Of a stretch of 64,000 nucleotides of DNA, positions 4,480-33,600 are shown in pieces (the stretch's first letter is position 1; every line of letters starts with the position of its first letter). The position numbers and the translations under genes are program-made. The DNA is from Mytilus galloprovincialis (taxonomy: Eukaryota; Mollusca; Bivalvia; Mytilida; Mytilidae). The notes under the pieces are model-generated. The model searched no databases. It was not told the origin of the DNA and worked only from the letters and a program-made list of their open reading frames with translations. The stretch lies in the NCBI RefSeq assembly GCF_965363235.1, contig NC_134849.1:63383122-63447121 (forward strand), read 5' to 3'.

Positions 4480-4557
4480 TTGTATAGTAACCAGCTAAGT
4501 ATGTAAAGCAGAAACAATTGAGGAAATCATATCGGAATGCTTTGCGTACTGACGAGA

Positions 4558-8110: not shown

Positions 8111-9569
8111 ATTTATATACCGTCAAAAAAATAATATTATTTTTTATAAAGATTTGCAAAACTTAGTATCATATTTTACCGACAACACTAAGTGGGATAT
8201 TCCTTTCTAATGCATTCAGGTTTTAATACGCCCTACGGCTCATTTAGAGTGTGAAATAAAACTCGCTAATGAATCTATATATATATAAACCTTTTAAAAA
8301 CTAGTATCCATACACAATAAAAATATTACTGTAACTGCATGAAGTAAGACACAAATGTATTGTTACCATCCGATAACGGTGTATGACAAATACAAGACAC
8401 ATTGTAAGTAATTTATTGTACCACTTAGTTTATGGAAAAGGGGGAGGGGTATGTTTTTTGTTCTATTTGTAATGTCATTTCTATCGCGGAAAAGTGGTTA
8501 TTTTTTTAACAATTTTAATTGAATCGAATGAAAAATTCAGAAAGATTGTCTTTTGATCGAAAAGCAATACATTTTATTAACAGATAATCAGGATATAATT
8601 ATATACCCTCCGCACCCGACCCTTTTCTGAGTTACGTTAATGTTATTCAATAGAAAATATAAGATTATCTTATTAGTTGATTATTTGAAAGAGTAAAAGG
8701 TATACATAAAATTAAAAAAGTTAAAGAACTGACACGAAGACGAATATAAATACATGTAGGTCACAGTATGATTTCCTATTCAGCGTTTATGTCCTGAACA
8801 TGCATTAAATATTTGCCACTGGACGTTAAGCAAGCAACCAAAAATCAATCAACCTATTCAGGACTCAATAAGGTTTTCAAAATCTAACACACGAATATGT
8901 TAAATCTGGCTTTTTATTTATGAAGGTCTATATTAAAACTCATCTCACATCTCATCTTTTGTTTTTAGCCATGACGTTATCAGTTTATTTTCAATCTATG
9001 AGTTTGACTGTCCCTCTGGTATCTTTCGTTCCTCTTTTAAAATATACGTGTTTCCGCTCTAACGATACATGCATCCCCGTGCATTAAACAAGAAGTGGCA
9101 TGTTTCTATTTCCTCCATCTTTTGTAACTGACAAATTGTCTCCACCAAATGAATTAACTGTTCAAAATTATAAAGTCATCCCTACCTATCAGTATATTGT
9201 AGTGTGTGGCTGTGGTATCTGTTATTGCAAACAGCTGTGTGGTCCTAATACACAGTATTTCAATGCATGATAAATATATAGTTTTGCGCAACCACTTAAT
9301 AGTTAAATTTGATGACCGTTTTAAGAAATCGTGTATGTTCCAGTTGACGTTTCCACAATACCGTCTTACTTACCTTAAACGGGACTTGCCGCATTATAAG
9401 AATTTTCACCGATTTTTACTTACTTGAGAAATTTTTAGTAACATGTTGCGCAGGATATGCTTACCCAACCAGGAATATCAGATATAACCAACGTTTTTTT
9501 AATGGGCTAGTTTTGCTTCGTGGTTAGTTTTCTGTGTTATGTTATATTAAATATAAGCCTTCTTGGAAA
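8111..9569. other. Intronic or intergenic stretch with one LINE-like 3' fragment
   Basis: Mostly AT-rich. A LINE-like 3' fragment lies at about 8955-9040 ('agccatgacgttatcagttt', 'tttgactgtccctctgg'). A 73-codon open frame at 9206-9427 shows no domain and no splice context, so it is not called a gene. Confidence 0.5.
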
Positions 9570-9860
9570 TCTTTCTTTCTTTCTTTTGCCATGGTTTGTC
9601 CGTTTATTTCTACTTATGAGTTAAATTATCCTGTTTTGTATCTTTTACCTCTTCTTTTGAATCATATGATATGATCATGATGACATTAAATATTTTCAAG
9701 AACTCATTAAAGATTTTAAAATCAACATATAATCAGGTGGCATGTTACGGAAGATACATTAAATTTATTCTCGATGATTTGTTGTTCATAAAATATCTTT
9801 TATTTCGTAGACAGTAGAAAACACAACTCAATCCATATCCAGAAAAATATAGTTTAACTA
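9570..9860 (+). other. Intron block homologous to the left flank of the 66-bp satellite
   Basis: Phrases such as 'ttttgaatcatatgatatgatcatgatga' (read in two halves) and 'gtagaaaacacaa' align with 16120-16370. The first 90 bp are a degenerate LINE-like 3' end. This is the sequence context in which the satellite later expanded in the neighbouring copy. Confidence 0.75.
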
Positions 9861-9862
9861 TG

Positions 9863-9937
9863 GTCTCTCTCATTGCTTAGTTGTACACAATTTGTTATCT
9901 TCCAACGTTCTCAGTCATGTTATCTCGAGACTTGGTT
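9863..9937 (+). repeat. Single, unexpanded unit of the 66-bp satellite
   Basis: It reads 'tctctctcattgcttagttg', 'tacacaatttg' and 'tcttccaacgtt' followed by 'cttggttggttgtt'. This is one unit of the repeat found about 104 times at 16371-23225. Both flanks match the flanks of that array, so this copy keeps the pre-expansion state. Confidence 0.85.
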
Positions 9938-10131
9938 GGTTGTTATTAATATTGAACCTGTATGAAATCCATGTTATATCCATCAACAGTTTTTCCTTAT
10001 CTTCAAATTTTAATGACCCTAGCAAAATTACACTTGTAACAAAAAAGTTCTGCAATATAGTATGGTGTTTTTTTACCTTTTCGTCGATTATTTTTTTTTT
10101 ATTACGAAACTATTTCAGCTATCAGTATTTG

Positions 10132-10147: not shown

Positions 10148-11311
10148 GTAATAACAAACTGAAAATAGGAAACTTAATGGTTTAAAATTTAAATGCGTAC
10201 AAAGGGCTATTTTGCGTTTACCGCCATCAAGACCACCAGAGCCGAATATTTGAGAGCCAATGATTTACCATACCGAACAGTTACTAAGAGTATTGAAAAA
10301 TTCTATGAATATTTATTTAAACCCCTCCATCTACCTTAGTATGTGTAAGTGATAAATCCGTATATATCCTTACATTGTCAATATGAAATGTTATAGAATC
10401 AATCAAATTGAATGGCTGTTTCTTTTTATATTGATGGAAACCCCAAAAAATATATAATACTTAAATATTATATCTTGACAGTGCAATATACTTGATACAA
10501 GTTTTCCAAATTAAAACTTAAATATCCTTAGTACAAGCATACCGTCATTAAGATATAAGTACCTGAGAACATTTACATGAAGAAGTAATTAATATTCATT
10601 ATCCCGATTCTATTGATTTAAGAATCATTTGCTCAAAGGTCAAGATAACAGTGGCTATGCCAGGACTCTTTTTGTTTTTTGTTTTTAGCAAAAGAAGGAT
10701 AGGTCATAATGTTTATCAGAGATCTTAACTGAAGTCATTGGATCGAATGTCAAAGTTGAATTTCGAAAGCATCACTTACATGTTTTCGGATAACATCTTC
10801 TGAACCGTTCGTTAAATCAACACTTTGATTTGATACAATATCTCGGTAACACTTCTATTGGTTATTGATAATATCCTTAAAAAAATTAGGATAATTATAT
10901 TTAGTTCAAGATAGTTATTTATTTTGAGGCAAATTTGTAAACGGTCAAGATCACAAAAGCAATTATTAAACTAAAATTTAAGCAAATAACGGTTTAATCG
11001 TCGCATCCATGAAGATCGGATATGTGGTTATGTAACCATGGTGCTTCTGTTGTTATCCAATTGTGGTTGATATAACTTTAACGTTCTTGAAGTTCTTACT
11101 AAATCAGATGACACATTTTCATCATCAGGAAAGCAAGTAGGGGAACCCTCCGAGTTCAAGCAAGAAAATATAAAAAATGTATGGGGGAGCTCGTCAAGAA
11201 CATACTCTATTACGTGCATCAACTAAATTAAGTCCTTCACGGATTACATAATAACTAGTAAAGGATTTCTATCCCTTATCTTTAATTAGTACACACATAC
11301 ATTTATTTCAG

Positions 11312-12395
11312 CTGACATCGGAAGAGTTTACCCTATTGGAATATGCATCCAAAGTAAAGAGACACAAGGAAACTGGACACATATCGATGGATCTACGATG
11401 GATTATTTCATGTGGCTACCAAATTAACCAAGTAGAGCATCAAATGTTATTCGCATGCTTCGGTCTCTAAACTACGGTTGGAAGTCTTCTAATCCCGAAC
11501 TAAATTGTACCAGCAGGGTTTCCGCTGGCGGTCGCCATTTTCGCAATTTGCGAAAAAATAATAATTGTGGCGATAAAAATTCGTCATTTGCGAAAGAATT
11601 TGGCGAAAGAAATATATAAACCGATTTATTTTCCTCCATCTTGTTTATTTACTTTTTTTCCAGTTTCTCGGACTTTACCTGATCAGACAATACTCGGAAT
11701 TCATCTTGACCTCATTAAGATTTAGACAGAAAATCAATAATCAGCTGATTGCATTTTATAGCTATCGACAACAAAGGACTAATTAATAAAGGTGTTGATT
11801 GAATTGTTTCACAAAATGATATGGTCAAATGGCTTCCGCTATAAATGTCACATACAGAATTTATTTACATCATTGCGACGCACGTGTTTGAAGCAAACTT
11901 TTGACATCTCTCCCTTTAAAGATAGTTTTGAAAAGAAAGCTGTTGTTGTGACGAAAATTGTTCAAAAGCAAGAAAAATCTCCGATTTAAAACTTTAATTC
12001 TTTTATCCTTTGACTTTAATAAAGTCGTTTGAGTGACACATGCACGTGTTTCAAGCATAGTTGTACATCTCAACTTTTTCATTTACGATGGTCAAGAAAA
12101 GAAAACTGTCGTTATGAAAAAATCTATCCAAAAGGCTGTGAACAACCCCTCGAATGAGAGTAACCCTTCAATGTAATGACTACACATGAAATGAGGGATC
12201 AATTTCATGTGATAAAAGCTTTTGTTTTGTTGTAAAAATTACTTCTTAGTACAAAAGGGCACAACAGGAAAAATATCTTTATGTTACTTGGCGAAAAAAA
12301 TAATAAAGTGGCGAAAAATATATTGTTTTGGCGAAAGAGGTGGCAAAAAAAATAATTGACCGAGGGGAAACCCTGGTACCTACATGTGTGATTAC
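11312..12395 (+). pseudogene. Broken exon 3 (C-terminal half of the CTLD), interrupted by an hAT-like insertion
   Basis: After the acceptor cag at 11309-11311 the frame reads ADIGRVYPIGICIQSKETQ and GNWTHIDGSTMDYFMWLPN, then an in-frame stop where the intact copies have GEPSG or NEPSG. Translation after the stop (PSRASNVIRML) still resembles the family as far as NCT at 11511. There an 862-bp element (11514-12375) is inserted. The tail YMCDYK resumes at 12381. Some 3' UTR sequence up to about 12545, including 'tagaataaac', matches the fragment at 38555. The nonsense change and the insertion are independent signs of a dead gene. Confidence 0.88.
11514..12375 (+). mobile_element. hAT-like non-autonomous element inserted in a lectin exon
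   Basis: The terminal inverted repeats are CAGGGTTTCC and GGAAACCCTG. GTACC is present on both sides (11507-11511, 12376-12380); the rest of an 8-bp duplication has diverged or is ambiguous. Subterminal 'tggcgaaa' motifs are clustered at both ends. Two diverged internal repeats share 'cacgtgttt' and a Lys-rich stretch (about 11880 and 12041), perhaps remnants of former coding sequence. No transposase signature is visible. Confidence 0.75.
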
Positions 12396-15440: not shown

Positions 15441-16119
15441 CACATGACTTAAGAAGTCATTGTTTAAGAATTTTTGTGATCAAAACGGCCGTTTCAAGAG
15501 AAGTAGTAAAAAGTACAATAACAAAAATTCCGAACTCTAAAAATTCAAAATGGAAAGTCCCTAAATAGGTTTTTAGAAAGGAGTGTTTTAGTTGCATGTC
15601 ACTAATGGCTTTCTAACTGTCAATCAATAATTGAATATTATTTGATATTTATCTTGATACTAATTGGACAAATCCACCGCCACATAACCACCACATAATA
15701 AGTTTAATCAAAACGTTCAAACAAAACAATATTTAATATTGTTTCGTGTCGGTACATAATCGCACAAAAGGGACAAGGAGACGACAGGGTTTAACTATAA
15801 TCGTTTGTTATACACAACTTTGCATCAAAACTAACAAAAAAATATGAATGTTTACCAATTGTTTTTTTTTTTTGGAAAATTGAAGTGTTATGGATTATTT
15901 CGGAGAAAGTGTTATTCCCAATGAAACTGATTATATAAACTATTATAATTAATAGACCTAGCTTTAAAATTTAAGCATTCTATCTCTATTGCTTAGTATT
16001 TAGTTTCCTATATTGTGTAGGTGTTGTTTTCGTTTCACGTTTGAAGTTCACATGGCCAAGAGCTGTTTATTTGAGGTGTGTTGTCCGTCATCGTCTATCG
16101 TAAGTCAAGTATAATGTTT
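15441..16119. other. Intergenic, nothing clearly supported
   Basis: A short stretch near 15530 ('gaactctaaaaattcaaaat') recalls another interspersed mussel repeat. Otherwise nothing is recognised. I searched by eye for a PAN-encoding first exon for the copy to the right and did not find one. Confidence 0.4.
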
Positions 16120-16370
16120 TCTTTCTTTGAAAACTTTCATTCTTTTCTTCTGCCACGGCTTCTCAGTTTGTTTTCTACGAATGAGTTTAAAGATCCTTTA
16201 ACTATCTTTCAATTCTTTTTTTGAATCATATAACATGATCATGATGATAGTAAAACTGTTTTAAAACTTCTGGGTGATTTGTTGAACAAAACCTTATCTT
16301 TTAATTATTATATAGACAGGTAGAAAACACAATTCCATGCAAATACAGAAACACATAATTTTAACTCTGG
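16120..16370 (+). other. Left flank of the satellite array, homologous to 9570-9860
   Basis: 'ttgaatcatataacatgatc' and 'aggtagaaaacacaatt' align with the intron of the pseudogene copy at 9655 and 9820. This fixes the array inside what was intron 1 of a lectin-family gene. Confidence 0.8.
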
Positions 16371-19300
16371 TCTCTCTGATTAGTTAGTGGTACACAATTT
16401 AATCTCTTCCTACCTTAACAGCCATGACAACTCGGGTCTCTCTGATTAGTTAGTGGTACACAATTTAATCTCGCCCTACGTTAACAGTCAGGACTACTCG
16501 GGTCTTTCTGAGAAGTTAGTGGTACACAATTTAATCTCTTCCTACCTTAACAGCCATGCCAACTCGGTCTCTCTGATAACTTAGTGGTACACAGTTTAAT
16601 CTCGTCCTAAGTTAACAGTCAGGATTACTCGAGTCTTTCTGAGTGGTTAGTAGTACACAATTTATTTTCGTCCTACGCTAACAATCAGGACAACTCGGGT
16701 CTCTCTGATTGGTTCGTGGTACACAATTTAATCTCGTTCTACGTTAACAGTCAGGACTACTCGGGTCGTTTCGAGTGGTTAGTGGTACACAATATTCTCG
16801 TCCTACGTTAACAGTCAGGACAACTCGGGTCTCTCTGATTGGTTAATTGTACACAATTTAATCTCGTCCTACGTTAACAATCAGGAATACTCGGGTCTTT
16901 CTGATTGGTTAGTGGTACACAATTTATTCTCGTCCTACGTTAACAGTCCGGACAACTCGGGTCTCTCTGATAAGTTAGTGGTACATAATTTATTCTCGTC
17001 CTACGTTAACAGTCAGGACAACTCGGGTCTCTCTTAATGGTTAGTGGTACACAATTTACTCTCTTTCAACGTAAACAGTCAGGACAACTCGGGTCTCTCT
17101 GATTGGTTAGTGGTTCACAATTTACTCTCTTCCAACGTTAACAGTCAGTACTACTCGGGTCTCTCTGATTGATTAGTTGTATACAATTTTACTCTCTTCC
17201 AACATTAACAGTCAGGATAACTCGGGTCTCTCTGATTGGTTAGTGGTACAAAATTTACTCTCTTCAAACGTTAACAGTCATGACTACTCGGGTCTCTCTG
17301 ATTGGTTAGTGGTACATAATTTACTCTCTTCCAACGTTAACAGTCAGGACAACTCTGGTCTCTCTTATTGTTTAGTGGTACACAATTAACTCACTTTCAA
17401 CGTTAATAGTCAGGACAAATTTGTTCTGTTTGATTGGTTAGTGGTGCACAATTTACTCTCTTTAAACGTTAACATTTAGAACAACTCTGGTCTGTCTGAT
17501 TGGTTATTGGTCCACAATATTCTCTCTTCCAACGTTAACAGTCAGAACAACTCGAGTCTCTCTGATTATTTGCTGGTGCACAATTTATTCTCTTCCAACG
17601 TTTACAGTCAGGACTACTCGGGTCTCTCTGATTGGTAAGTGGTACACAATTTAATCTCTTCAAACGTAAACAGTAAAATCAACTCGCGTCTCTCTGATTG
17701 GTTAGTGGTTCACAATTTACTCTCTTCTAACGTTAACAGTCAGGACTACTCGGGTCTCTCTGATTGGTTAGTGGTACATAATTTACTCTCTTCCAACGTT
17801 AACAGTCAGGACAACTCTGGTCACTCTGATTGGTTAGTGGTACACAATTTACTCTCTTCCAACGTTAACAGTCAGGACAACTCGTGTCTATCTGATTGGT
17901 TAGTGGTACACAATTGAATCTCATCCAACGTTAGCAGCCATGAATACTCGGGTCTCTCTGATTTGTTAATGGTTCAAAATTTACTCTTTTCTAACGTTAA
18001 CTGTCTGGACAAATCTGGTATCTGATTGTTGAGTGGTCTACAATTTACTCTCTTCCAACGTTTACAGTCAGAACAACTCGGGTCTCTCTGATTGGTTAGT
18101 GGTGCACAATTTACTCTCTTTCAACGTTAACAATCAGGACTACTCGGGTCTCTCTGATTGGTAAGTGGTCCACAATTTAATATCTTCCAACGTTAAAAGT
18201 CAGGACAAATCTGATCTCTTTGATTGGTTAGTGGTGCACAATTTACTCTCTTCAAACGTTAACAGTCAGGACAACTCTGGTCTCTCTGATTGTTTAGTGG
18301 TACACAATTTACTCTCTTCCTACGTTAACAGCCATGACTATTCGGATCTTTCTGATTGGTTAGTGGTACACAATTTACTGTCTTCAAACGTTAACAGTCA
18401 GAACAACTCGGGTCTCTCTGATTGGTTAGTGGTACATAATTTACTCTCTTCCAACGTAAACAGTCAGGACAACTCTGGTCTCTTTGATTGGTTAGTGGTA
18501 CACAATTTACTCTCTTCCAACGTTAATAGTCAGGACAACTCGTGTCTATCTGATTGGTAAGTGGTACACAATTGAATCTCATCCAACGTTAACAGCCATG
18601 AATACTCGGGTCGCTCTGATTGGTTAATGGTACAAAATCTACTCTTTTCTAACCTTAACAGTATGGACAACTCTGGTATCTGATTGGTTAGTGGTCTACA
18701 ATTTACTCTCTTCCAACGTTAACAGTCAGAATAACTCGGGTCTCTCTGATTGGTTAGTGGTGTACAATTTACTCTCTTTCAACGTTAACAGTCAGGACTA
18801 CTTGGGTCTCTCTGATTTACTAGTGGTCCACAATTTAATCTCTCCAAACGTTAACAGTCAGGACAACTCTGGTCTCTCTGATTGGATAGTGGCTTACAAT
18901 GTGCCCTCTTTTAACGTTAACAGTCAGGACAACTCTGGTCTCTGATTGGTTAGTGGTGCACAATTTACTCTCTTCCAACGTTAACAGTCAGGACAACTCT
19001 GGTCTCTCTAATTGGTTAGTGGTGCACAATTTACTCTCTTCCTACGCTAACAGCCATGACTACTCGGGTCGCTCTGATTGATTAGTGGTACACACTTTAA
19101 TCTCATCATACGTTAACAGACAGGAAAACTCGGGCCTCCCCGATTGGTTATTGGTAAACAATTTACTCTTTTCTTACGTTAACAGTCAGGACAACTCTGG
19201 TCTCTGATTGGCTATTGGTACACAATTTACTCTCTTGCTACGTAAACAGTTTGGACAACTTGGGTTTCTCTAATTGATTAGTGGTACACAAGCCACTCTC

Positions 19301-22300
19301 TTCCTACGTTAAAAGTCTGGACACCTCGGGTCTCCCTGATAAGTTAGTGGTACACAATCCACTCTCTTCCAACGTTCAGAGTCTGGACAACTCGGGTCTC
19401 CCTGATTAGTTAGTTGTGCACAATTTATTCTCTTCCTACGTTAACAGTCAGAACAACTTTAGTCTCTCTGATTGGTTACTGGTACACAATCCACTCTCTT
19501 CCAACGTTCAGAGTCTGGACAACTCGGGTCTCCCTGATTAGTTAGTTGTGCACAATTTATTCTCTTCCTACGTTAACAGTCAGAACAACTTTAGTCTCTC
19601 TGATTGGTTACTGGTACACAATCCACTCTCTTCCAACGTTCAGAGTCTGGACAACTCGGGTCTCCCTGATTAGTTAGTGGTACACAATTTACTCTCTTCC
19701 AACGTTTACAGTCTGGACAACTCTGGTCTCTCTGAATGGTAAGTGGTACACAATTTAATCTCTTCATATCTTAACAGTCAGAACAACTCTGGTCTATCTG
19801 ATTGGTTAGTGGTGCCCAATTTACTCTCTTCCAATATAAACAGCCAGGACACCTCTGGTCTCTCTGATTGGTTAGTGGTACACATTTTACTCTCTTCCAA
19901 CGTTAACAGCCAGGACAACCCGGATCTCTATGATTGGGTAGTGGTGCACAATTTACTCTCTTCCAACGTAAACAGCCATTACAACTCGGGTCTCTCTGAT
20001 TGGTAAATTGTACACAATTTACTCTCTTCCAACGTTTACAGTCAGGACAACTCTGGTCTCTCTGATTAGTTAGTGGTACACAATTTACTCCCCCAACGTT
20101 AACATTCAGGACAACTCTGGTCTATTTGATTGGTTAGTGGTGCACAATTTACTCTCTTCAAACATTAACAGCCATGACAACTCGGGTCCCTGTCATTGGT
20201 AAGTGGCACACTATTTACTCTCTTCCAACGTTAACAGTCTGGACAACTCGGGTCTCTCCGATTGGTTAGTAGTACACAATCTACTTTCTTCATATATCAA
20301 CAGTCAGAACTACTCGGGTCTCTCTGATTAGTTGGTGATACACAATTTACTCTCTTCCTACGTTAACAGTCGGAACAACTCGGGTCTCTCTGATTGGTTA
20401 GTGGTACACAATCCACTCCCTTCCAACGTTAACAGTCTGGACAACTCGGGTCTCCCTGATTAGCTAGTTGTGCACAATTTACTCTTTGCCTACGTTAATA
20501 GTCAGATCAACATTGGTCTCTCTGATTAGTTAGTGGCACACAATTTACTCTCTTCCAACGTGAACAGTCAGGACTACTCGGGTCTCTCTGGTTAGTTGGT
20601 GGTACACAATATACTCTCTTCTAACGTTTACAGTCTGGACAACTCTGGTCTCTCTGATTGGTAAGTGGTACACAATTTAATCTCTTCATATCTTAACAGT
20701 CAGAACAACTCGGGTCTATCTGATTGGTTAGTGGTGCCCTATATACTCTCTTCCAATAAAAACAGCCAGGACACCTCTGGTCTCTCTGATTGGTTAGTGG
20801 TACACATTTTACACTCTTCCTACGTTAACAGTCAGGACAACTCGGGTCTCTCTGATTGGTTAGTGGTGCACAATTAACTCTCTTCCAACGTTAACAGCCA
20901 GGACAACTCGGGTCTCTCTCTTTGATTGGTTATTGGTACACAATTAACTCTCTTCCAACGTTAACAGCCAGGACAACCCGGATCTCTATGATTTGGTAGT
21001 GGTGCACAATTAACTCTCTTCCAACGTTAACAGCCAGGACAACTCGGGTCTCTTTGATTGGTTATTGGTACACAATTTACTCTCTTCCAAAGTTAACAGC
21101 CATTACAACTCGGGTCTCTCTGATTGGTAAATTATACACAATTTACTCTCTTCCAACGTTTACAGTCAGGACAACTCTGGTCTCTCTGATTAGTTAGTGG
21201 TACACAATTTACTCCCCCAACGTTAATATTCAGGACAACTCTGGTCTATCTGATTGGTTAGTGGTGCACAATTTACTCTCTTCAAACATTAACAGCCATG
21301 ATAACTCGGGTCCCTCTAATTTGTAAGTGTTACACAATTTACTCTCTTCCAACGTTAACAGTCTGGACACCTCGGGTCTCTCCGATTAGTTAGTAGTACA
21401 CAATCTACTTTCTTCATATATTAACAGTCAGAACTACTCGGGTCTCTCTGATTAGTTGATGATACACAATTTACTCTCTTCATACGTTAATAGTCAGGAC
21501 AACTCTGGTCTCTCTGATTGGTAAATGGTACACAATTTACTTCCTTCATATGTTAAAAGTCAGAACTACTCGGGTCTCTCTGATTAGTTGGTGATACACA
21601 ATTTACTCTCTTCCTACGTTAACAGTCAGAACAACTCGGGTCTCTTTGATTGGTTAGTGGTACACAATTTACTCCCCCAACGTTAATATTCAGGACAACT
21701 CTGGTCTATCTGATTGGTAAGTGGTACACAATTTAATCTCTTCATATCTTAACAGTCAGAACAACTCTTGTCTATCTGATTGGTTACTGGTGACCAATTT
21801 ACTCTTTTCCAATATAAACAGCCAGGACACCTCTGGTCTCTCTGATTGGTTAGTGGTACACATTTTACTCTCTTCCTACGTTAACAGCCAGGACAACTCG
21901 GGTCTCTCTCTTTGATTGGTTATTGGTACACAATTTACTCTCTTCCAACGTTAACAGCCAGGACAACCCGGATCTTTATGATTGGGTAGTGGTGCACAAT
22001 TGACTCTCTTCCAACGTTTACAGCCATTACAACTCGGATCTCTCTGATTGGTAAATTGTACACAATTTACTCTCTTCCAACGTTTACAGTCAGGACAACT
22101 CTGGTCTCTCTGATTAGTTAGTGGTACACAATTTACTCACCCAACGTTAACATTCAGGACAACTCTGGTCTATTTGATTGGTTAGTGGTGCACAATTTAC
22201 TCTATTCAAACATTAACAGCCCTGACAACTCGGGTCCCTATAATTGGTATGTGGTACACAATTTACTCTCTTCCAACATTAACAGTCTGGACAACTCGGG

Positions 22301-23225
22301 TCTCTCCGATTGGTTAGTAGTACACAATCTACTTTCTTCATATATTAACAGTCAGAACTACTCGGGTCTCTCTGATTAGTTGATGATACACAATTTACTC
22401 TCTTCATACGTTAATAGTCAGGACAACTCTGGTCTCTCTGATTGGTTAGTGGTACACAATCCACTCTCTTCCAACGTTAACAGTCTGGACAACTCGGGTC
22501 TCCCTGATTAGCTAGTTGTGCACAATTTACTCTTTTCCTACGTTAATAGTCAGATCAATATTGGTCTCTTTGATTAGTTAGTGTTACAAAATTTACTCTC
22601 TTCCAACGTGAACAGTCAGGACTACTCGGGTCTCTCTGGTTAGTTGGTGGTACACAATATACTCTCTTCTATCGATTACAGTCTGGACAACTCTGGTCTC
22701 TCTGATTGGTAAGTGGTACACAATTTAATCTCTTCATATCTTAACAGTCAGAACAACTCTGGTCTATCTGATTGGTTAGTGGTGCCCAATTTACTCTCTT
22801 CCAATATAAACAGCCAGGACACCTCTGGTCTCTCTGATTGGTTAGTGGTACACATTTTACTCTCTTCCTACGTTAACAGTCAGGACAACTCGGGTCTCTC
22901 TGATTGGTTAGTGGTGCACAATTAACTCTCTTCCAACGTTAACAGCCAGGACAACTCGGGTCTCTTTGATTGGTTATTGGTACACAATTTACTCTCTTCC
23001 AACGTTAACAGCCATTACAACTCGGGTCTCTCTGATTGGTAAATTGTACACAATTGACTCTCTTCCAACGTTTACAGTCAGGACAACTCTGGTCTCTCTG
23101 ATTAGTTAGTGGTACACAATTTACTCCCTTCATATGTTAACAGTCAGAACTACTCGGGTCTCTCTGATTAGTTGGTGATACACAATTTAATCTCGTCCTA
23201 CGTTAACAGGCAAGATGACTCGGGT
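16371..23225 (+). repeat. 66-bp satellite array of about 104 tandem units
   Basis: The unit reads roughly 'tctctctgattggttagtgg', 'tacacaatttactctcttcc', 'aacgttaacagtcaggac' and 'aactcggg'. The array is about 6.85 kb. Units near both edges carry 'ctcgtcctacg' where most interior units carry 'ctcttccaacg' or 'ctcttcctacg', so subfamilies are spatially sorted. Higher-order structure is visible: a 132-bp dimer occurs three times starting at 19351, and a longer block recurs around 19743, 20665, 21721 and 22713. Because 66 is a multiple of three and the consensus has one open frame, stretches of 60-131 codons with 22-residue repeats (SDWLVVHNLLSS...) appear. Stops, mostly TGG to TAG, interrupt them irregularly. 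The position within an intron and the single-unit paralogous sites indicate a non-coding satellite. Confidence 0.95.
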
Positions 23226-23496
23226 CTCTGAGATTGGTTGGTTGTTTTTATTATGGGTCTTGTTTTAAAAATGTAATCGTTTTATATCCGCAAACAGTTT
23301 TTCCTTACCTTAGAATTGTTGTGAACCTAACATAATCACACTTGTCCAAAAAAATATTCTGCAAAATAGTGTGTCGTTTTGTGGCTTTTTCGAAATTATT
23401 GTTATTAAATTAATAACTTTTTTTATTACGAAACTATTTACACAATTTGTATTTACTCCATAATAAGATACTTGCCGATAATTACCATTTTTGTAG
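23226..23496 (+). other. Right flank of the satellite and end of the intron
   Basis: 'gattggttggttgttttta' and 'cagtttttccttacctt', then 'ttattacgaaactattt', align with 9930-10115 of the pseudogene copy. The segment ends in the acceptor ttgtag of the following exon. Confidence 0.8.
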
Positions 23497-23667
23497 GTGC
23501 TGATTGCTTTTTGGTCAACTGCTTCTACTGCAGAGAGACGAACTTGTGCTATACATTGGAACCGCCAATCAAAGCATACGTTTTAAATGAAGATTGCGTG
23601 TATCCAGAAAGTGGGCTCATGCATTTCGATTCTGATATAAAACAAGATTACCTAAAGTTTGTTACTG
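23497..23667 (+). CDS. Orphan exon 2 of a PAN-CTLD lectin gene (first half of the CTLD)
   Basis: This is a 171-bp phase-1 exon of exactly the same length as exon 2 of the intact gene. It lies between an acceptor (ttgtag) and a donor (gtaataac). It reads ADCFLVNCFYCRETNLCY, then TLEPPIKAYVLNEDC and GLMHFDSDIKQDYLKFVTG. This matches the family's LCY...C...IDSD.+QDY pattern, the N-terminal half of a C-type-lectin-like fold. It has two extra cysteines (in NCFYC) compared with the intact copy. No first exon was found between the pseudogene's last exon and the satellite, and no third exon before the next gene starts at 25096. The exon is open but probably not part of a working gene, unless it is spliced to distant exons. 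Confidence 0.75.
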
Positions 23668-24179
23668 GTAATAACGACATGAAAAAAACCTACACGTCAT
23701 AAATCGTTATGCGTCCAAAGCGCTATTCTGCCTTTACCTTCAACTCCAGAGCAGAATATTTAAAAGCCAAAGATTCAAAATACCAAAAAGTTACTAAGGA
23801 TGACTGGGGGTCTACCTCAAACTTGAAATCTAAAATAGCAGATAGCCATTGGTCTGTATCTCTCTTAAAACGTGCAAATTTTCAGAGTATATATAGTATG
23901 TGATTCATGTGTAAGACTTTTCATATTGATATAAAAAAGTATGTGTATTGTATTCTATCAGGCTGTATTATAAAAAAATACATAAAGTTTTTGTTTGGAT
24001 TACTTTGGCACATAAGGGGAGAGAACTCAGATAGAGTATTTTTTGATATAATGTGTTGATATTGTTGCAAGAAGAAGACGAACCAAGTGAGCTCCTCTCT
24101 TGACTTTCTTATCTTTAAAAAATAATATAAAAGTTGTTTTTTCATATTCTGTATATCTTAACATTCTAAGATGTCTAAC
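23668..24179. other. Intron-like sequence after the orphan exon
   Basis: 'gcgtccaaagcgctattctg' and 'agagcagaatatttaaaagc' align with 10193-10260 after the exon-2 remnant of the pseudogene, so this is old intron 2. The open frame at 23709-23903 falls in this intron homology and is not called a gene. Confidence 0.6.
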
Positions 24180-24395
24180 AAAAAATAAGATATGGTACGA
24201 TTGCCCATAAGATAACTTTCAACAAGTGACCAACATGACACAAACATTAACAACTATAGGTCACCGTACGGCCTTCAATAATGAGCAAAGCCCATCTCGC
24301 ATAGTCACCTATAAAAGGCCCCGAAATGACAATGTAAAACAAGCCCAACGAGAAAACTAATGGCCTTATTTTTGTACAAAAATGAATAACATAGT
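24180..24395 (+). repeat. Dispersed mussel repeat ('gatgtggtatgattgc' family)
   Basis: It contains 'atatggtacgattgcccata', 'aacaactataggtcaccg', 'tacggccttcaa' and 'ataaaaggccccgaaatgac'. This is one of the longer copies in the window. Confidence 0.75.
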
Positions 24396-24401
24396 GGAAA
24401 A

Positions 24402-24560
24402 ATGCAGTTTTTGGCTTATGTCTCTTTATCAAAGCATTTAATGCAAATCTGGAAGATTAAAAAATGGTCATCAGGTGAAGATCTATCTGTCCGGAAATTT
24501 TTAGAACCATCAGACAACCACTTGTTGGGTTGCTGTAACATTAAAATAACAAAATTGAAA
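24402..24560 (+). mobile_element. Fragment of the 500-bp core repeat of the HINE-like element family 1
   Basis: 'cagtttttggcttatgtc', 'caggtgaagatctatctgtc' and 'cacttgttgggttgctg' align with the tandem core units at 53745-56065 ('caggtcaagatctatctgcc', 'cggttgttgggttgctgcc'). It is a single diverged core unit without the terminal hairpin. Confidence 0.65.
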
Positions 24561-25095
24561 TCAATTGTTATATATCAGTTAACGATATAAAATGATCTTT
24601 TTGCTTTTGTGTTTTTCTATCTCGAGAATTGTGCAACCTTCAATATCATCAGTATACAACTACTGAAAGGAGTGTAATTATAGAAAAAAAGTGTTTTGAT
24701 AACTTGAACATATAAAGTACTATCAGGAGACCGGTCTTTTAGATTAGTTGAAATTTAAAGAGATATTTATACCCTAAATGGGAGATCTTAAATATCGTTC
24801 GTGGATCATTGTTTCAGCTCTTGCATGAATAAAATATTATTTAATTTATTTTGCAGACGACAATGATAAATTGAAACATAACCGCATATGATATAAGTTA
24901 CACAATACCAAGGGCTCAAACTGTTAACAAAGAAAATATTTTCAATAAAAAAAGATTCGATTAATTAAAAGGTGAAACAGACAAATCAACATATAATAGG
25001 TCAACGTATAACGTCAGCTCATAGTAACCACATAATTATTCGAAGTACAAACTATTGAAGTCAATCATAGAAGAGAACTTTGTGAACTGATACGA
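24561..25095. promoter_or_regulatory. 5' flank of the intact lectin gene
   Basis: From about 24900 to the ATG the sequence aligns with the 5' flank of the pseudogene (shared 'aacagac.aatca' and 'catagtaacca'). It is therefore the likely promoter and 5' UTR. No TATA box could be placed with confidence. Confidence 0.4.
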
Positions 25096-25405
25096 ATGGA
25101 TATATCTATCATATGTCTATGTATGCATACGATGTTCGTTGCTGTCCTTAGTGAATCAAGAATTAGATTGATCTCAGCGCACTATAAACCTGAATATGAC
25201 AACAACTATGAAGTAGAGAACGCCATTGACACCTATCGTGTTAGGTCTGTAGGGCTATGCGGTATAAAATGTATGTCAAATGCGCGTTGTTTGTCTTTTT
25301 TCTACAACAATCTTACAGGAATGTGCATTTTACACTCAGATCCGTTCACCTATACTGTGATGTCATCTTCAGCGAAAGGTTGGAAATTTTACCTTTCACA
25401 GGAAC
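25096..25405 (+). CDS. Secreted PAN/apple-CTLD lectin-like protein, exon 1 (signal peptide and PAN-like domain)
   Basis: This is the first of three exons (25096-25405, 28924-29094, 30455-30681) that join in frame through two phase-1 introns into a 235-residue protein. Residues 1-19 (MDISIICLCMHTMFVAVLS) form a signal peptide, so the product should be secreted. Residues about 20-103 resemble a PAN/apple-like domain, with cysteines at 55, 59, 65 and 77 in SVGLCGIKCMSNARCLSFFY and LTGMCILHSDP, and one N-glycosylation sequon (NLT at 72-74). PAN domains bind proteins or sugars. The exon ends at a strong donor (GTAAGT) after Gln-Glu. The ATG is supported by the aligned start of the pseudogene at 4558. 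Ligand and tissue are unknown; a role in innate recognition or mucus is a reasonable guess for bivalve lectins, nothing more. Confidence 0.85.
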
Positions 25406-26175
25406 GTAAGTCTACATATAGCTAGTAATCTTCTATATTTTCTATAGTTTACAGAATTTTAACCCTATTACCGATACTGAGTGTATCAACAAGCATTGAG
25501 TTTTTCTTCCCGTGAGTACCATGAGCTAAGTAGTCTGTATTTCCGTGTTAACATGAATTGTCTTTGTTAAGATTATATTAAAATCAACTGTTGGCAATCA
25601 TTTTTATTTTTTCGAAATATTAAGTAATGTCAACTCCAATGTTGAGCACTCGGGGTTTTTCAACTTTTTACTTTATTTGGCCTTTTAACGTTATTTTATT
25701 CGAGTGTAACTGGTGAGTCTTTTTGAAGACAAAAAGCACAAGTGATGTAAAGCATAACATGATCTTTGTATCTATGATAAGTTTATTCATAAAGGGTATT
25801 AATGTATTATATATATAGTCAACAAAAACGGACGGACAATCTTCTCCAGACATGAATTTCTATTAACAATGTTTATGTTCTAGACAATATGAGTACTTGT
25901 ATATGGACCATGCACAGATACTCATATGGTCCGACCATACGCTTATGTCGACCATATGAGAATATAATTGTTTAATTGTTAACCGGCCAGGCCATAGGCG
26001 TATTTGGTTTTGTAAAATTATTCTTAGTTAATGCTTTTAATTCTATCTTCCTCCACATGAATACACAACTTGTTCTTCTAATAAAAACTGACAAAAGATA
26101 CAAACTTAAATTGTTTATCTTTTACAAATTAGTTGAATCTTTTAATAATAAGGAGATGAATATCAACCAACATTA
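25406..26175 (+). other. Intron 1 of the intact lectin gene, homologous to 6780-7885
   Basis: 'cccgtgagtaccatgag', 'cagatactcatatggtccg' and 'tcgaccatatgagaat' align with the pseudogene's intron. The homology is cut by the element starting at 26176 and resumes after 27803. Confidence 0.75.
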
Positions 26176-27800
26176 GAGACTTATCATTTTTAACCTGGGA
26201 GGGGGGTGGGGGCTGGTCAAAATGCAGGGGGGATCAAGTTTTTTTTCTGTAAGTGGAAAAGGGGGGTTCAATTTTTAGAAATTCAAAGAGTGGAGATAAT
26301 TTTTTGGGGGCAAATGGAAGTAAATAGTTTGCATTCTTCAAGAGACAAAATGTTAAGAAGAACATTACAAAAATCAAATAATTATATATTTTTACCATCA
26401 TTCATCAAATTTATTTCATTACCATATATTATAATAATTTGTGTCCTGTAAACATGGTATATGTACTGATTAAATTAGTTCACTGATCACACATCAATAT
26501 AACCCTCAGTACCTAAAAGCTTAACAGTTAAAAAGTCAAACACGTCAGACTCATCTCCTGTACCTTGCATGTCAAGAGCTTCATAAGAGTCTGATTCGGC
26601 TTGATTTTGATTTTCATCTGACTTTTCATGCCCATAAGAGTTTGGCATGACTTTTTATTGTAAACATTATTCCAAACATAAACTGCTTCCGTTGTAAACG
26701 AAAATCTAAAGTAGCGAGGTTTTTTTTAAAGCTGCCAATTTTTTCTTGGTCGAATTGATTTGAATATATATTTGTCTGGTTATTTCAAGTAAAACTGCCA
26801 TGTTGTATCATACTCACTAACTAAGCTTATTAGTTTAAGAGAAAATAAGTATGAATTAAAACAAAATCTACGATTTGTGTATAATTTCTTCAAAAGAAAT
26901 CCAAATTATACTGCATCATGAAAGAATATAGTTTTGACTAATAAATTCACCAATAAATGATCATATATTTATCTAAGCTGCATACAAACAGTTGAATTTG
27001 ATCCAAAGTTGATTAACACTACTAAATGTACATTTTTGTTTTCATTGGGTTCAATTATACTTCCCATTCCCTCAAAAGTTGTACTTTTTAGGCCAAAACA
27101 TTTGTTGGGGTTACTTACACTAGACATGCTAGACCAAATGTGAGATATGTGACAATAAATGAGTAAATGATTCGTTCAAGCTGAATGAACTATCCATATA
27201 TAAGTCTACCAATTCCATTGAGCTTTCAATATATAGCCATAAGTAAACTTAAGTTTACGAAGCGTTTAAGAAAGAGGTATATATATAACAGATCCCTTTT
27301 TATACTAAATAAAGTGTTGTTACTGTTTTTAAAAACATATACTTTTTACTGTATTTATTTTCTCCAAAACTGCCAAACAAGTGTTTTTTTTAGCCCAATA
27401 TGGGTAATTAGTGAAAAAAACGTAAGAAAAAGCATCCCAAAGCACAGGTTATGGCTTACGCTACCTACACATATTTCTTGGAAGAGCCCTATTTCAAGGC
27501 AACTTTCCCTCAAATAAATTTTTGAGACTCATTCCAATGAGAACTTTTCATGTTTGCAATATTTCCGTGAAATAACATGACAAGTGTTTTCTATTTTAAA
27601 ATGTTTAGTTAATCACAGAACAGTATATGATATCTAATATATATGTTCCTGGTTTAATAGAGGGGGGGATCACATTTTTTTTAAATGTTTTTAAGGGGGG
27701 ATCAAATAAAAAAAGTGAAATATTAGTTGGGATCAAGAAAATTTTATATGTTTGATTTCCAAATGACCAGCCCCCTCCCAGGTAAATAATGATAAGTCCC
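26176..27800 (+). mobile_element. PIF/Harbinger-like non-autonomous element, 1.6 kb, TTA target duplication
   Basis: The left end GAGACTTATCATTTTTAACC and the complement of the right end GGGACTTATCATTATTTACC form inverted repeats that continue into CTGGGAGGGGG. TTA flanks both ends (26173-26175, 27801-27803). The aligned pseudogene intron has a single TTA at 'aaagttagtgtatctgct' (about 7882) and no insert, so it serves as an empty site. A 3-bp TWA duplication is the mark of PIF/Harbinger transposases. Internal open frames of 81-114 codons show no transposase or Myb-like motif. It sits in intron 1 of the lectin gene. Confidence 0.8.
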
Positions 27801-28024
27801 TTAGTATATCTGCTATTTTGCTTCGCCGGGGTCATTACAGAACGCATCGTGTGAATTTGTGTATCTAAAATAATACAAAAATCATTTATACAAATTGTGT
27901 TATTATGTGTTTCTATAGGAAAACAACATATCGGTATCCTTTTAATCAAATCTAAATACCAAAATTAATGACAAACGCGATGATTTTAATTTTCCTATAG
28001 TCAACTTTCTATGTCTGTGTAGCA

Positions 28025-28500
28025 ACATCCCAGCGGCACCAGCATATGGAGTATATGTGTCTCAATTGATAAGTTACTCTAGAACTAGCTCAAAGTACGT
28101 TGATTTTGTTGAACGAGGAATACTGCTTTCTCAAAAGTTGCTAAGACAGGGCTATGAATCAATCAAGTTGAGGTCATTACTCAAGAAATTTTACGGTCGC
28201 CATAATGAGCTGATTGGCCATTATGACAAAAGTGTGTCAGAAATCATATCTGATATTCTTCCTCAGTCATATAACCTTCCATCATTACCGAACTAAACAA
28301 AGAAATAACACGACGGGTGCCGTATACGGTACAGGAAATGCTAACCCATCCGGAGCACCTGATTTCACTCACGGTTTTTTTGGAGTTCGTGTTTTTTCTT
28401 AATTATTATTATTGATAACTGTTGATGTAAATGTCCTTTAGTTTATTAGTCTTAGTTTACTCCTTGGTTTTGATTGTTATTGTCTAAATACAAAACTAAT
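28025..28500 (+). mobile_element. LINE-like retroelement 3' fragment (end of the polymerase frame plus 3' UTR)
   Basis: The frame from about 28045 carries VSQLISYSRTSSKYVDFVER and QGYESIKLRSLLKKFYGRH. I recognise this from memory as the C-terminal end of a reverse-transcriptase-bearing mobile element common in marine invertebrates. It is followed by 'cgacgggtgccgtatacgg', 'gcaggatct'-like sequence and a 3' UTR shared with 6968-7330 (reverse). It is a truncated, inactive copy inside intron 1. Non-LTR type is inferred from 5' truncation; I cannot exclude another retroelement class. Confidence 0.6.
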
Positions 28501-28755
28501 AATACGTAAATACATATTAATTAGTAAAAGATATAAAATGAACAGTTCGTTCAATATCGTTTCCACGATGACTTTTACATGGTCTGTTGAGCATAGTCCT
28601 GTCTCAGTAACAATGTTCTGTAACTAACTTACCTACTTTTTAACCACTGGACAGTAAAACAAAATAAACAGCTATATTTGAAATGCTGAAATATTCGAGG
28701 TACATGACATAAATAAGACATTCGATGCCTAGACGGGAAAATATCATTGTAACCA

Positions 28756-28806
28756 GGATTTGTAAGTGGTACACAATTTGATCTTTACGTGTTGATGAAA
28801 ACTCCT
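28756..28806 (+). repeat. Single diverged unit of the 66-bp satellite in the intact gene's intron
   Basis: 'gatttgtaagtggtacacaa' followed by 'tttgatctttacgtgttga' aligns with the satellite unit ('gattggttagtggtacacaa'). It lies about 120 bp before exon 2, the same place as the single unit in the pseudogene copy. It is one copy only and has lost several bases. Confidence 0.7.
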
Positions 28807-28923
28807 CATATGCCTCTATTCGTGATATTAGACTGGACATTATTTTTCTTATTTAAGAATTATTTCAGCTATAAGTGTTTCGTTCTATTATTTGGTATTT
28901 ACAGTGAATAAATATTTTACCAG

Positions 28924-29094
28924 GTGCCGGTCGCTGTTTGGTCAACTTCTTCTACTACAGAGAACTTGACTTGTGTTATAAATTCGAACCACCAATTCGA
29001 GTATCCGTTTTTCACACCGATGTTGTGTGTCCAGCAAGTGAACCCATGCGCATCGATTCTGATGAAAGACAAGATTATGTCAAGCTTGTAACAG
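28924..29094 (+). CDS. PAN-CTLD lectin-like protein, exon 2 (first half of the CTLD)
   Basis: Residues 104-160 read RAGRCLVNFFYYRELDLCYK, then VVCPASEPMRIDSDERQDYV and KLVTG. The CY pair at 121-122, Cys139 and the IDSD.RQDY helix are typical of the N-terminal half of a C-type-lectin-like domain. The acceptor is ttaccag and the donor gtaata. The split codon c|gt joins exon 1, and g|ct joins exon 3. The exon is the same length as the orphan exon at 23497. Confidence 0.85.
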
Positions 29095-30454
29095 GTAATA
29101 AAGACCTTGAAACCCTTACCAAGTCTCCCTAAAACCTTGGTGTTTTATAAAGGGACATGACAACACTATTAACGTTTATTGAAATAAGCCCCGCTTACTA
29201 GCCTTATTTGGAATATAAATGGTCTCCACAAGTTTGTGTGTAACCAATCATAGTCCTAGAAATGTATAAGAGGTGAGATAAACTTACATTCATTTTGAGG
29301 AAATTTGTAAAAGGTCAAAATCACAACAGAATTATTAATTTAAAACTGACATTGTAACAAAAAAAAACATTTATTCATCGTATGTTTTCTGTAATGTCTT
29401 ACGATAATATGGCTTTATTATTACATACTGAGGTTTAGTTTTAGGCAGATGTACTGTCTGTACACAAACAGAGATTGTTTCATCAAACTAAGTATTTTAT
29501 TATGTAACTAAAATATATTTTTAAATCTAGGAAAGTTTTTTCTATTGGTTTTAAATAATTACAAAAAAAAAGAATTTATAGATAAACATAAAACATTTAA
29601 AAGTCTTTAATAAACAAATGATCCATTGTATTCATTAATCTGGTAATAATATTAAATCAAATAGCTATACTGTAAGATGAAATTATGACCTTGTACAACA
29701 ATAAATGCTCGGATTCGATAAACCTTTCGGAATGAAAAATAAATAAACTCTTTAATTCAAATGACACTTCAAATGTGTGCTATAGCGGCAATGAAGATTC
29801 TAAATTATCAATATAATCGACCGTTTTGTTAATCTATAAGAAAGTGTCAGCTGACAGATACTAAAACACAGTAAAGTAAAATTGTTTTAAAGTTTTAAAT
29901 CATACTCTGACAAAAGCATTTACTGCGACGTCATAGCTCCTTTGTAACGTGTTTAAGCATAAATATAAGATTGTTGTTGAACATTGTATACTGTAACTTC
30001 AGAAATCATTGCGTGTATTTATAATTGTGATTTTGTCGTTTTAGAATCAAATGCGAATTTAATTTTTACGATTTTCATCAAAATCCTGATAAATTCATAT
30101 ACAAAATTTCAAATTGCGAGTTTAAATTATTGCGTTTACAACTCTGTCGCATTTTTTGCAATACAAAAAACCTCGCAATAATTTCTGAATTTACAGTACA
30201 TGTAACAGTATAAGACACAACAACACGTATTGTACATGTTGTATGATTGCACCAACCTATTCACATACATGTTTACTTAAAGCCTGAACATTTAGATATT
30301 GTTTTTTTTTTAATCCATGTCAGTATTTAACATAATCATGATTTCTGAAACACGCTACCTCAACTAAATAAAGTCATGCATGGGTTATACAAAAACATCT
30401 TAAAAATATCTTTTGCTAATCTATAATTAATACAGACATACAATTTTTTTTCAG
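29095..30454 (+). other. Intron 2 of the intact lectin gene
   Basis: AT-rich phase-1 intron. Parts near its 3' end ('cctcaactaaataaagtc', 'ctaatctataattaatacag') align with the introns before the last exons at 11312 and 39135 (reverse). The 65-codon open frame at 29984-30181 is not called a gene. Confidence 0.7.
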
Positions 30455-30681
30455 CTAACATTGGAAGAGTGTACTATATGCAAATATGTATACAAGGTAA
30501 AAAGACACAAGGAAAATGGAAGTTCAACGATGGAACTATGATGGAGTATTTTAGGTGGCGCCAAGGTGAACCAAGCGGATTATCTAACGTCATCATTATG
30601 AAGCGGTGGAATAACTACAACTGGCAAAATCCTCATCCAGATGATGAGAAGTGTACCTATATGTGTGAATATCGACCATAA
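30455..30681 (+). CDS. PAN-CTLD lectin-like protein, exon 3 (second half of the CTLD and stop)
   Basis: Residues 161-235 include CIQGKKTQGKW, NDGTMMEYFRWRQGEPSG and KCTYMCEYRP before the stop. The W..W..GEP and C...CE spacing match the C-terminal half of a CTLD. The usual calcium/sugar motif EPN (mannose type) or QPD (galactose type) is EPS here, and no clear WND follows (NYNWQNPHPDDEKC). Classical calcium-dependent sugar binding is therefore uncertain. The acceptor is ttttttcag. A polyadenylation signal AATAAA lies about 155 bp after the stop. Confidence 0.88.
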
Positions 30682-30835
30682 ATTTAAATATAGTGACGTT
30701 AACCAATATAAAGAAAAAACGTTGACTTCTTCTGTAAAGCTAACTCTTCTACTTTCCTTTTTAATTCATACCATATAGATTAATTTAGATTTTTTTTGTG
30801 TAAAATTTGTCTATAATACACTATGCATATACTGA

Positions 30836-30841
30836 AATAAA
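30836..30841 (+). terminator. Polyadenylation signal of the lectin gene
   Basis: AATAAA in 'ctgaaataaacataag', about 155 bp after the stop codon, is the first clear signal on the plus strand. Confidence 0.5.
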
Positions 30842-30849
30842 CATAAGTC

Positions 30850-32319
30850 ATGGTAAATCTTGTTAATGTACAAGTGCACATGACACCACAAGATCATCAA
30901 GACGTTTATATCTGAGTACTACTGCCACTAAGTCATTTATGCAAGCAATACATTTGTTTGAGATTTTCACATTTGTCAAAGCCATTTCCTTTTCCCCATA
31001 AAAAAAAATCCAAATTTGATGTGAGGTTCCAAATTCCAACAAGTTTACGTTTTGTATTTATTATCTATAAGTTCACCTCTAGAAACAGAATGTATTAAAA
31101 CCTAATAATTCTTACAAACTTGGCATTTTTTTTTATTTCCGATTTATTTTAGCTTACTCCAAATTACTTGCTATTCAACAGTTGACGTAGTTTAATGTTT
31201 ACTTGCATGTATCTGTTATTGTGCAAATAATGACGAAGAACAACAAAATAACAAAATAAATCAAAATCAAAACTTCATTTCAAAGATCGTTTTTCCGAAT
31301 TTGCAGCATGTTCGTTAATAGTTAATCTTCAGATTGGAAGTTTTTATTCGCATGCCATAATGTTTTGCTATGACGTTAATCTTTACACAACTATGAACGA
31401 CATCACGTGACTTTAATGACGTAATACTCCACCCTTTTTAGAACATTTTTCTACTCAACATTCAATGGGACTTTCAATAAACATAAGTAATTATCGACCA
31501 GCTTTGTTGTCTCACATGTTCAATCTGCTAGCCCTCAGTGTTCTGTTTGTTGTCTCACATGTTCAATCTGCTTGCCTTCAGTGTTCTGTTTGTTGTTTGC
31601 TTTTGTTTTATTTATTTGTTTACTTAAAACAAAATATGCTTTGATTATCTTTTAAGCTTGCTTGCTGTGATTTATGCATGTATTTTCAGCTATTACAGTC
31701 TGCATATGTTTTTTATGTATGTGTCGTCTGTCAAATGGTTGATATGTTAGTTTGTATATATCATGCCGGATAAAATTTACTTAGTACTTACTTACTTACT
31801 AACCACACATATCAAGAAATACAAAAAAAAATATACAGTTTAACAGGTTGTTTAACATTTCAATATTAACGAAGCGAAATCGAGAGTTTGCATAATAGTT
31901 TGTAATAATGATATGTGGAATTGTATGCGAGGTAATCTACAGCAGGAAAAGATATGTTCATGTCTGAATTTGAGCCTAATATTTTGAGCATTTTATTGGG
32001 CTTTTGATATCAAAATTTGTTATAATAAATGGCTGTGATATTCTCTGTCGTAAGAATCAAGGGCATTGACGGGTTGGTTTATATTCTTCTTTATTAGAAA
32101 ATTACTAAATCTGCCTATGCAGACAACCTGCCAATCCAATTTATGAATTATTATATTGTCTAATTTTTATATGACTCATATGTAATAAAACATCCACTCA
32201 ATAATGTGTTCTTATTCTACTAATTAATTGCAGATGTCCATGTACGTGTAAAGCATTTCTTATTGACTCGACTTTATGTTCTTTATTTGTGAACTTGAAC
32301 TTTAGAATATAACGAAGCG
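30850..32319. other. Intergenic, with a 43-bp direct duplication
   Basis: No gene is recognised. 'gttgtctcacatgttcaat' occurs twice in tandem with period 43 (from 31506 and 31549), each followed by 'ttcagtgttctgttt'-like sequence. The rest is AT-rich. Confidence 0.5.
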
Positions 32320-32752
32320 GTATGATGGCCAATGACACAATTTTTCAGTAGGGGCCAATTGACGCAAAAGCTAGCAACTATAGGTCATCATGAGGGTAAT
32401 GATCAAATTGTATACCGCTCAACAACCAATTAATGTCTTCATAATGAAAAGTGTGAAACAATTCATTTCAGAATCTTTTTATCGAATAAAGCCATTTCAA
32501 TTTATGTTTTATAGTGTGTCTTTTTTATGATGTGATGTTACACTATTGTTTCAGATAAGGGCGATGGTTTGGTACCTTATGACACATCTTAACTCGCTGC
32601 ATTAGTTTTCACCTGTCCTAAGTCAGGAATTTTATTTTCATTAGTGGTCGTTTGTTGATGTGGTTCATCGGTGTTTCTCGGTTCTTTTTTTTTATATCGA
32701 TTAGACTGTTGGTTTTCCCGTTTGAATGGTTTTACACACGTAATTTTTGGGG
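32320..32752. repeat. Dispersed mussel repeat fragments next to array 2
   Basis: 'agcggtatgatggccaatga' and 'gcaactataggtca' (about 32331-32390) recall the 'gatgtggtatgattgc' family. 'acctgtcctaagtcaggaat' and 'gtggtcgtttgttgatg' (32610-32660) recall its other half in reverse. Confidence 0.55.
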
Positions 32753-33530: not shown

Positions 33531-33600
33531 TGGTTGGTTGTTTTTAAAATGGAACCTGTTTTTAAAATCAATCGTTTTATAACCGCCAAATTACATTCCA
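33531..33600 (+). other. Lectin-intron flank after array 2
   Basis: 'ttggttggttgtttttaaaa' and 'aatcgttttataaccgc' align with 23240-23300. The homology ends near 33600, so array 2 travelled with a short piece of the original intron. Confidence 0.75.

Follow-up and report, generated by a model that had tools for sequence, protein, structure and literature searches.

The array and its host intron

The window analysed here is a 64,000-nucleotide stretch of the Mytilus galloprovincialis genome (C12:63383122-63447121), and its main array, A1, together with the flanking intron was studied in this one genome (assembly 1.385 Gb). TRF delimited A1 at 16363-23239 with a period of 66 bp, 104.3 copies, 82% matches and 0% indels, in agreement with the approximately 104 tandem 66-bp units of the original prediction (16371-23225). 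A wrap-around parse recovered 104 full units followed by a 29-bp partial one, extending the array to 23245, with 706 mismatches to the consensus among 6866 aligned bases (10.3%) and an exact length of 66 bp in 90 of the 104 units. A minisatellite is defined in PMC3389668 by head-to-tail units of more than 10 and fewer than 100 bp, and A1, with its 104 units of 66 bp, falls within that definition. A second array, A2, which the original prediction does not mention, carries 11.6 copies of the same repeat (TRF limits 32753-33518) and is a fragment without an exon. Its 3' end and approximately 50 bp beyond match those of A1, including the incomplete last unit, whose score was equalled by 0 of 2000 shuffles in A1 and by 7 of 2000 in A2. 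The many-copy repeat remnant directly behind A2 (720 first-look candidates, 40 scored) is probably a terminal-inverted-repeat element, judging mainly from one copy (L028) with two inverted ends.

Both flanks of A1 align with the intron of a pseudogene in the window, as had been proposed, over 9560-10115 and with E values from 2e-22 to 3e-7. On the 5' side, 16123-16254 matches 9560-9690 (78.9%, E 2e-22) and 16268-16361 matches 9768-9855 (74%, E 3e-7), and on the 3' side 23282-23439 matches 9974-10115 (72%, E 2e-16). The first ~120 bp of the 5' flank, which also match sites free of family exons on C3, C6 (67.9 Mb) and C8, probably represent an old dispersed repeat. Three loci (L019-L021) match this first part of the flank only, and neither a family exon nor the 66-bp unit was found in them.

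The exon that follows the 3' flank, designated MID, has 11 matches in the genome, itself included, and in paralogue B and others it sits between a PAN exon and a lectin-like exon. Lectin_C matched four of four queries (one of them a chimera) at 16.4-22.1 bits, all under the curated cut-off of 22.6; the single lectin-like exons of the C10 and C6 copies gave E values of 0.015 and 2.6e-4, and in the window neither the MID nor the lectin-like exons, taken singly, had a Pfam match at E 0.1. It is reasonable, on these comparisons, to regard the host as a PAN plus C-type-lectin-like family, for which the earlier label of lectin family is not firm.

The placement of the array in an intron of this family stands, as the flanks align, but its assignment to a gene does not, as only one exon was found in what is probably a relic. 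Using five exon queries, tblastn found neither a PAN nor a lectin-like exon for the array copy in the window, leaving MID as the sole exon found, and it is mainly because of these missing exons that the copy appears to be a gene relic. The protein branch of its MID exon is 0.62, compared with 0.06-0.24 for nearer copies and 0.55-0.87 for L017 and L016. Its dN/dS is 0.80-1.06 against C10, C6, C12b (C12:54.72 Mb) and C12a (C12:19.6 Mb, L010), 0.94 against L012, and 0.49-0.54 against B, L014 and L015; values near 1 occur in other pairs too (C10-C12b 1.04, C12b-C12a 1.20, L014-L015 1.10).

Table 1. Features of the array locus and its gene copies, in window positions.
Feature	Position	Strand	Basis or remark
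PAN-like exon of pseudogene	4525-4873	+	matches PAN exon of B in two frames (frameshift); no Pfam match
66-bp unit in pseudogene intron	9856-9941	+	one unit, possibly with remnant of a second; E 8e-12
Lectin-like exon of pseudogene	11264-11511	+	tblastn
5' intron flank of A1	16123-16362	+	homologous to pseudogene intron 9560-9855
Array A1	16363-23239	+	104 full 66-bp units, TRF limits; TRF and unit parse
Two identical adjacent 132-bp blocks	19389-19652	+	units 47-48 = 49-50; latest visible duplication
11-unit block inside A1	20245-20974	+	second copy at 22293-23018 (lag of 31 units); 96.6% mean identity
Incomplete last unit of A1, 29 bp	23217-23245	+	junction is that of A2; parse and shuffle test
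3' intron flank of A1	23246-23480	+	homologous to 9974-10115 and to C10, C6 and C12b introns
MID exon of array copy	23496-23699	+	first half of C-type-lectin-like domain, judging by position; without Pfam match by itself
PAN exon of paralogue B	25036-25422	+	Pfam PAN_1, E 2e-6, 28 bits, above cut-off
Half unit in intron of paralogue B	28757-28785	+	E 0.0064
MID exon of paralogue B	28923-29126	+	exon search
C-type-lectin-like exon of paralogue B	30475-30678	+	without Pfam match by itself; joined to MID, Lectin_C E 0.0038, 18.4 bits (cut-off 22.6)
Array A2, 11.6 units of the A1 repeat	32753-33541	+	5' end cut mid-unit; 3' end with same incomplete last unit; TRF, parse, shuffles
3' flank of A2	33542-33589	+	homologue of A1 3' flank (82% identity of 33536-33589 with 23240-23294); cut off by inserted repeat
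Many-copy repeat remnant	33590-33674	+	directly behind A2
Further lectin-like exon	39183-38914	-	tblastn

Distribution of the unit in the genome and in paralogous introns

Searches of the 1.385-Gb assembly, in which all match counts are lower bounds, located the 66-bp unit only in introns of the family and in the array fragment A2, apart from two pattern matches taken as chance. A 133-bp query returned at least 66 matches, of which the two window arrays account for 64 and C10 and C12 (19.6 Mb) for one each; a query built with the C10 units further detected C6 and C12 (54.72 Mb). When up to 3 mismatches were allowed, a 23-base pattern was hit at least 91 times and its reversed control 3 times. 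The pattern matches at C12:54742293 and C13:22658396 (3 mismatches), around which there is no family exon or homologous intron flank, were set aside as chance; among these loci, L033 has no more than a 144-bp segment in common with the C6 intron, in a different part of it. As a positive control, a 257-bp unit returned at least 608 matches on many chromosomes, indicating that a dispersed satellite is detectable by such a search. The same searches overlooked known units, however, as those of the pseudogene and C5 escaped the 133-bp, C10-unit and pattern searches and that of C5 was found only by a local profile after flank matches pointed there, and single units that have diverged may likewise have gone unseen elsewhere.

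Growth inside an intron of the family, as originally predicted, is thus supported both by the confinement of the unit to family introns and A2 and by the family-intron identity of the two A1 flanks. The accompanying description of the repeat as a satellite had to be abandoned: two arrays lie within 17.2 kb and none was found elsewhere, against the 257-bp control, and the A1 repeat lacks the abundant arrays at many or heterochromatic loci of a classical satellite. A1 is instead a minisatellite of a single locus.

The intron or the sequence around it was examined in 14 copies, of which eight carry units and six have no detected unit. Whether other introns of the family hold one unit or many, a question posed with the original prediction, has a mixed answer: C10, C6 and C12b have two each, C12a and C5 (C5:37.7 Mb) one each, and six none that could be detected. 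Within the window, A1 has 104 units and a partial one, the pseudogene has the single unit ascribed to it, possibly with the remnant of a second, and B has half a unit. For this intact paralogue the prediction of one diverged unit at the matching spot was correct as to place, with surroundings that align with the C5, C6 and C10 introns, but only about half a unit is present. The six copies in which the unit went undetected are L012, L014, L015, L016, L017 and L031; alignable intron remnants (dispersed repeats aside) occur in L012 and L031 only, and in L012 and L015 the PAN exon was not reached, with intron coverage possibly incomplete.

The two-unit introns bear directly on the seed of the array. 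Within C10, C6 and C12b the first and second units differ at 43 of 188 bases, and intron flanks compared between loci differ at 144 of 758 (p 0.14 for greater); because the divergence of the two units is not below that of the flanks, the unit pairs look no younger than the gene copies. The C12a unit is nearest to the second units of C10 and C12b, which are themselves 84% identical, and the C5 unit is 81% identical to the second unit of C6 and 59% to the first. By these resemblances, the single units of C12a and C5 look like losses of the first unit from a pair. The ancestral state was likely a pair of units, a single unit being possible, and the intron tree, with supports of 19-88 below the root, is too weak to polarise the change.

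The alternative in which a single intronic unit was ancestral and retained in the pseudogene and B, the array grew from it, and the pairs arose as separate small duplications is unlikely. It draws on the alignment of the flanks, on the existence of single-unit introns and on the comparison of registers, as between loci same-register pairs (84 of 377 bases different) are no more alike than cross-register pairs (80 of 368). However, it must contend with pairs in C10, C6 and C12 that share their period and whose units are as diverged as the genes, with C5 and C12a singles that resemble the second member of a pair, and with a half unit in B that is most simply explained by deletion. A partial second unit in the pseudogene is not significant alone (321 of 2000 shuffles score as well). 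By eye, the altered 3' junction of A1 seems to recur in the pseudogene, which for this reason may be a contracted sister of the array rather than its ancestor. The origin of the array from one unit, as first proposed, is therefore disfavoured by the three two-unit introns and by single-unit introns that look like losses from a pair. The proposal that the window preserves the before and after states of satellite birth fares no better, since the before state was probably not a single unit and A1 is old.

Internal structure and age of the array

Unit sub-types are laid out in order along A1. C at position 39 occurs in 80 of the 104 units, though in none of units 1-10 and not in the last, G at position 44 is confined to units 2, 4-10 and the last, and T at position 48 is found in all of units 1-10, in the last two and in 25 units between. 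The units checked in the C10, C6 and C12a paralogues have A at position 39, so C39 of the A1 core is the newer state; G44 of the end units also looks new. The 3' half of the array contains block copies at lags of 14, 15, 17, 29, 30, 31 and 45 units, the longest being an 11-unit block at a lag of 31 (units 60-70 against 91-101, 96.6%), and the 5' half contains one, at a lag of 10. Such a pattern is consistent with repeated events of unequal exchange, of gene conversion or of slippage, among which the data do not separate, and the exact 132-bp duplicate suggests recent change.

Units have an average identity of 0.819 within A1, 0.865 within A2 and 0.834 between the two arrays. With a mean unit identity of 82%, A1 is an old array that also bears traces of later multi-unit duplication. 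Its 3' flank and that of the pseudogene agree at 151 of 187 sites, and by such comparisons the array is about as old as the split of the gene copies.

Age also bears on whether arrays were once long in every copy and collapsed to one or two units except in A1 and A2, a scenario that we consider less probable still than a single-unit ancestor. Losses are probable in C5, C12a and B, and both window arrays are old, with mean unit identities of 82% and 87%. General collapse would nevertheless require independent shrinkage to exactly two units in C10, C6 and C12b, and the checked units of C10, C6 and C12a show A39 in contrast to the prevailing C of the array units.

Origin of the array and behaviour of the intron

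Taken together, we interpret A1 as a non-coding intronic minisatellite grown from an ancestral pair of units in an intron of a PAN plus C-type-lectin-like family, a reading to which we assign a probability of roughly 0.8. The family ancestor would have had two 66-bp units in the intron that precedes the MID exon, as suggested by the pairs in three paralogues. A rearrangement on the 3' side, in the lineage leading to the window copies, would have left the run ending in the 29-bp incomplete unit seen in A1 and A2. The pair would then have expanded to 104 units by slippage, unequal exchange or gene conversion, partly via the multi-unit runs whose block copies are visible in the array. Growth would have taken place in a gene copy without its other exons, probably free of constraint, and the other copies would have remained at two units or been reduced to one or half.

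A function of the array is neither needed nor indicated. That the units are a functional element (an enhancer, a CCAAT/NF-Y-like site or a coding repeat) whose copy number was selected is highly improbable, although the consensus holds CTGATTGGTTAG, which we take to be NF-Y-like, and most units keep their exact length. The conservation of this motif (0.900-0.911) is hardly above the unit mean (0.897), and the units are no better conserved than the flanking intron (0.812, 0.812 and 0.704 against 0.812, 0.831 and 0.785), diverging as the flanks do. A coding repeat is contradicted by the sole open consensus frame (+0, of six), which has a stop in 49 of the 104 units, and the array copy itself looks like a relic. 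A structured RNA or hairpin-driven growth was rejected as well, with no Rfam match at the gathering threshold in 15500-34500 and folding z-scores of +0.70 to +1.13; there was no hairpin excess, the folding of the unit (one strand) and of the dimer (both strands) being no stronger than that of shuffled sequences, a comparison that addresses structure and not replication pausing at the seed.

Just as improbable is an origin as mobile-element cargo, for which Pacific oyster Helentron or MITE elements carrying satellite-like arrays (described in PMC7492417) offer a precedent and a MITE-like remnant touches the A2 3' flank, but the flanks on either side are family intron, the remnant cuts the A2 flank whereas the A1 flank continues into the exon as in C10, and neither a dispersed unit, at the search sensitivity used, nor the constant element ends at dispersed loci of a transposon-borne tandem repeat were seen.

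A1 clearly illustrates one way in which a minisatellite can arise, though by an ordinary mechanism. The model of Taylor and Breden (2000), as described in PMC3389668, has minisatellites born by slipped-strand mispairing at non-contiguous repeats, with an incomplete terminal unit as its key feature. A1 resembles it in that a short pre-existing direct repeat would have seeded the array and in ending, as A2 also does, in an incomplete unit; it differs in that short and long states occur here in paralogues of one genome and that the seed was probably already a full pair. Minisatellite copy number likewise varies between human segmental-duplication paralogues (as reported in PMC2812944), but there units averaging 30 bp in four copies modify gene structure, whereas here 104 units lie in the intron of a probable relic. 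The Helentron arrays described in PMC7492417 are also satellite-like tandem arrays in a bivalve genome, although they spread by transposition and the A1 repeat was found only in the intron of one family and a fragment. CharSat01-52, in the account of PMC8210747, is similarly an old repeat that is short in most carriers and amplified in one (one fish species), but that comparison concerns a satellite between species and ours paralogous introns and a single locus. No earlier description of A1 was recognised in the open-access literature as screened by listings, most subscription papers lying outside this scope.

The value of the locus lies in the range of states found in one genome, where copies of one intron hold no detectable, half, 1, 2, approximately 12 and 104 units and an unrelated 73-bp array was born in that intron of another copy. 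Seed size, direction of change, block growth and indel purging thereby become measurable without a population sample, with the caution that a single-unit paralogue is not automatically ancestral.

The 73-bp array comprises 9 copies in the C12a intron (L010 3212-3861; C12:19645811-19646460, minus strand), and the 66-bp profile does not match its unit. Of the 73-bp sequence, C6 holds approximately 1.6 copies, and C10, C5 and B each have a single or incomplete one; searching the genome at E 0.001 returned at least 7 matches, all in C12a, C6 and C10, and missed C5 and B. Because this unrelated element rose to 9 copies in the same intron, array formation is not particular to the 66-bp sequence; it is a property of the intron, or else a matter of chance in a genome rich in repeats.

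Indel events are scarce relative to substitutions in A1 (22 to 706, 0.031) and A2 (2 to 56, 0.036), and more frequent in the 73-bp array (7 to 51, 0.137), a 67-bp array (10 to 51, 0.196) and the remaining arrays scored (0.27-0.71). The intron flanks show 60 gap events to 144 substitutions between paralogues, a ratio obtained with a different aligner from that of the arrays, whose units are non-independent. The deficit is not unique to A1, as the 257-bp satellite has a similar ratio (8 to 193, 0.041). Tentatively, and with the odds against it, the family intron may be a repeat nursery, in which unrelated neighbouring 66-bp and 73-bp sequences each became arrays in different paralogues, and unit exchange in the long-lived 66-bp array may purge indels approximately tenfold while substitutions build up. 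If so, recombination would exert a length-locking effect on array units that is testable across paralogues.

Other tandem repeats lie near copies of the family and in the window. The 257-bp repeat forms an array upstream of a paralogous exon in L012 (3018-8201; C12:54.687-54.692 Mb), which was considered as a third array birth and rejected, being a dispersed satellite by its genome matches. The 67-bp array, with approximately 10 copies and a higher-order period, is situated upstream of the C6 paralogue (L011 7320-7990). The window itself also contains a compound 39/87-bp tandem array with many indels at 61252-62045 and a 500-bp tandem repeat of four copies, 92% alike, at 53869-55839.
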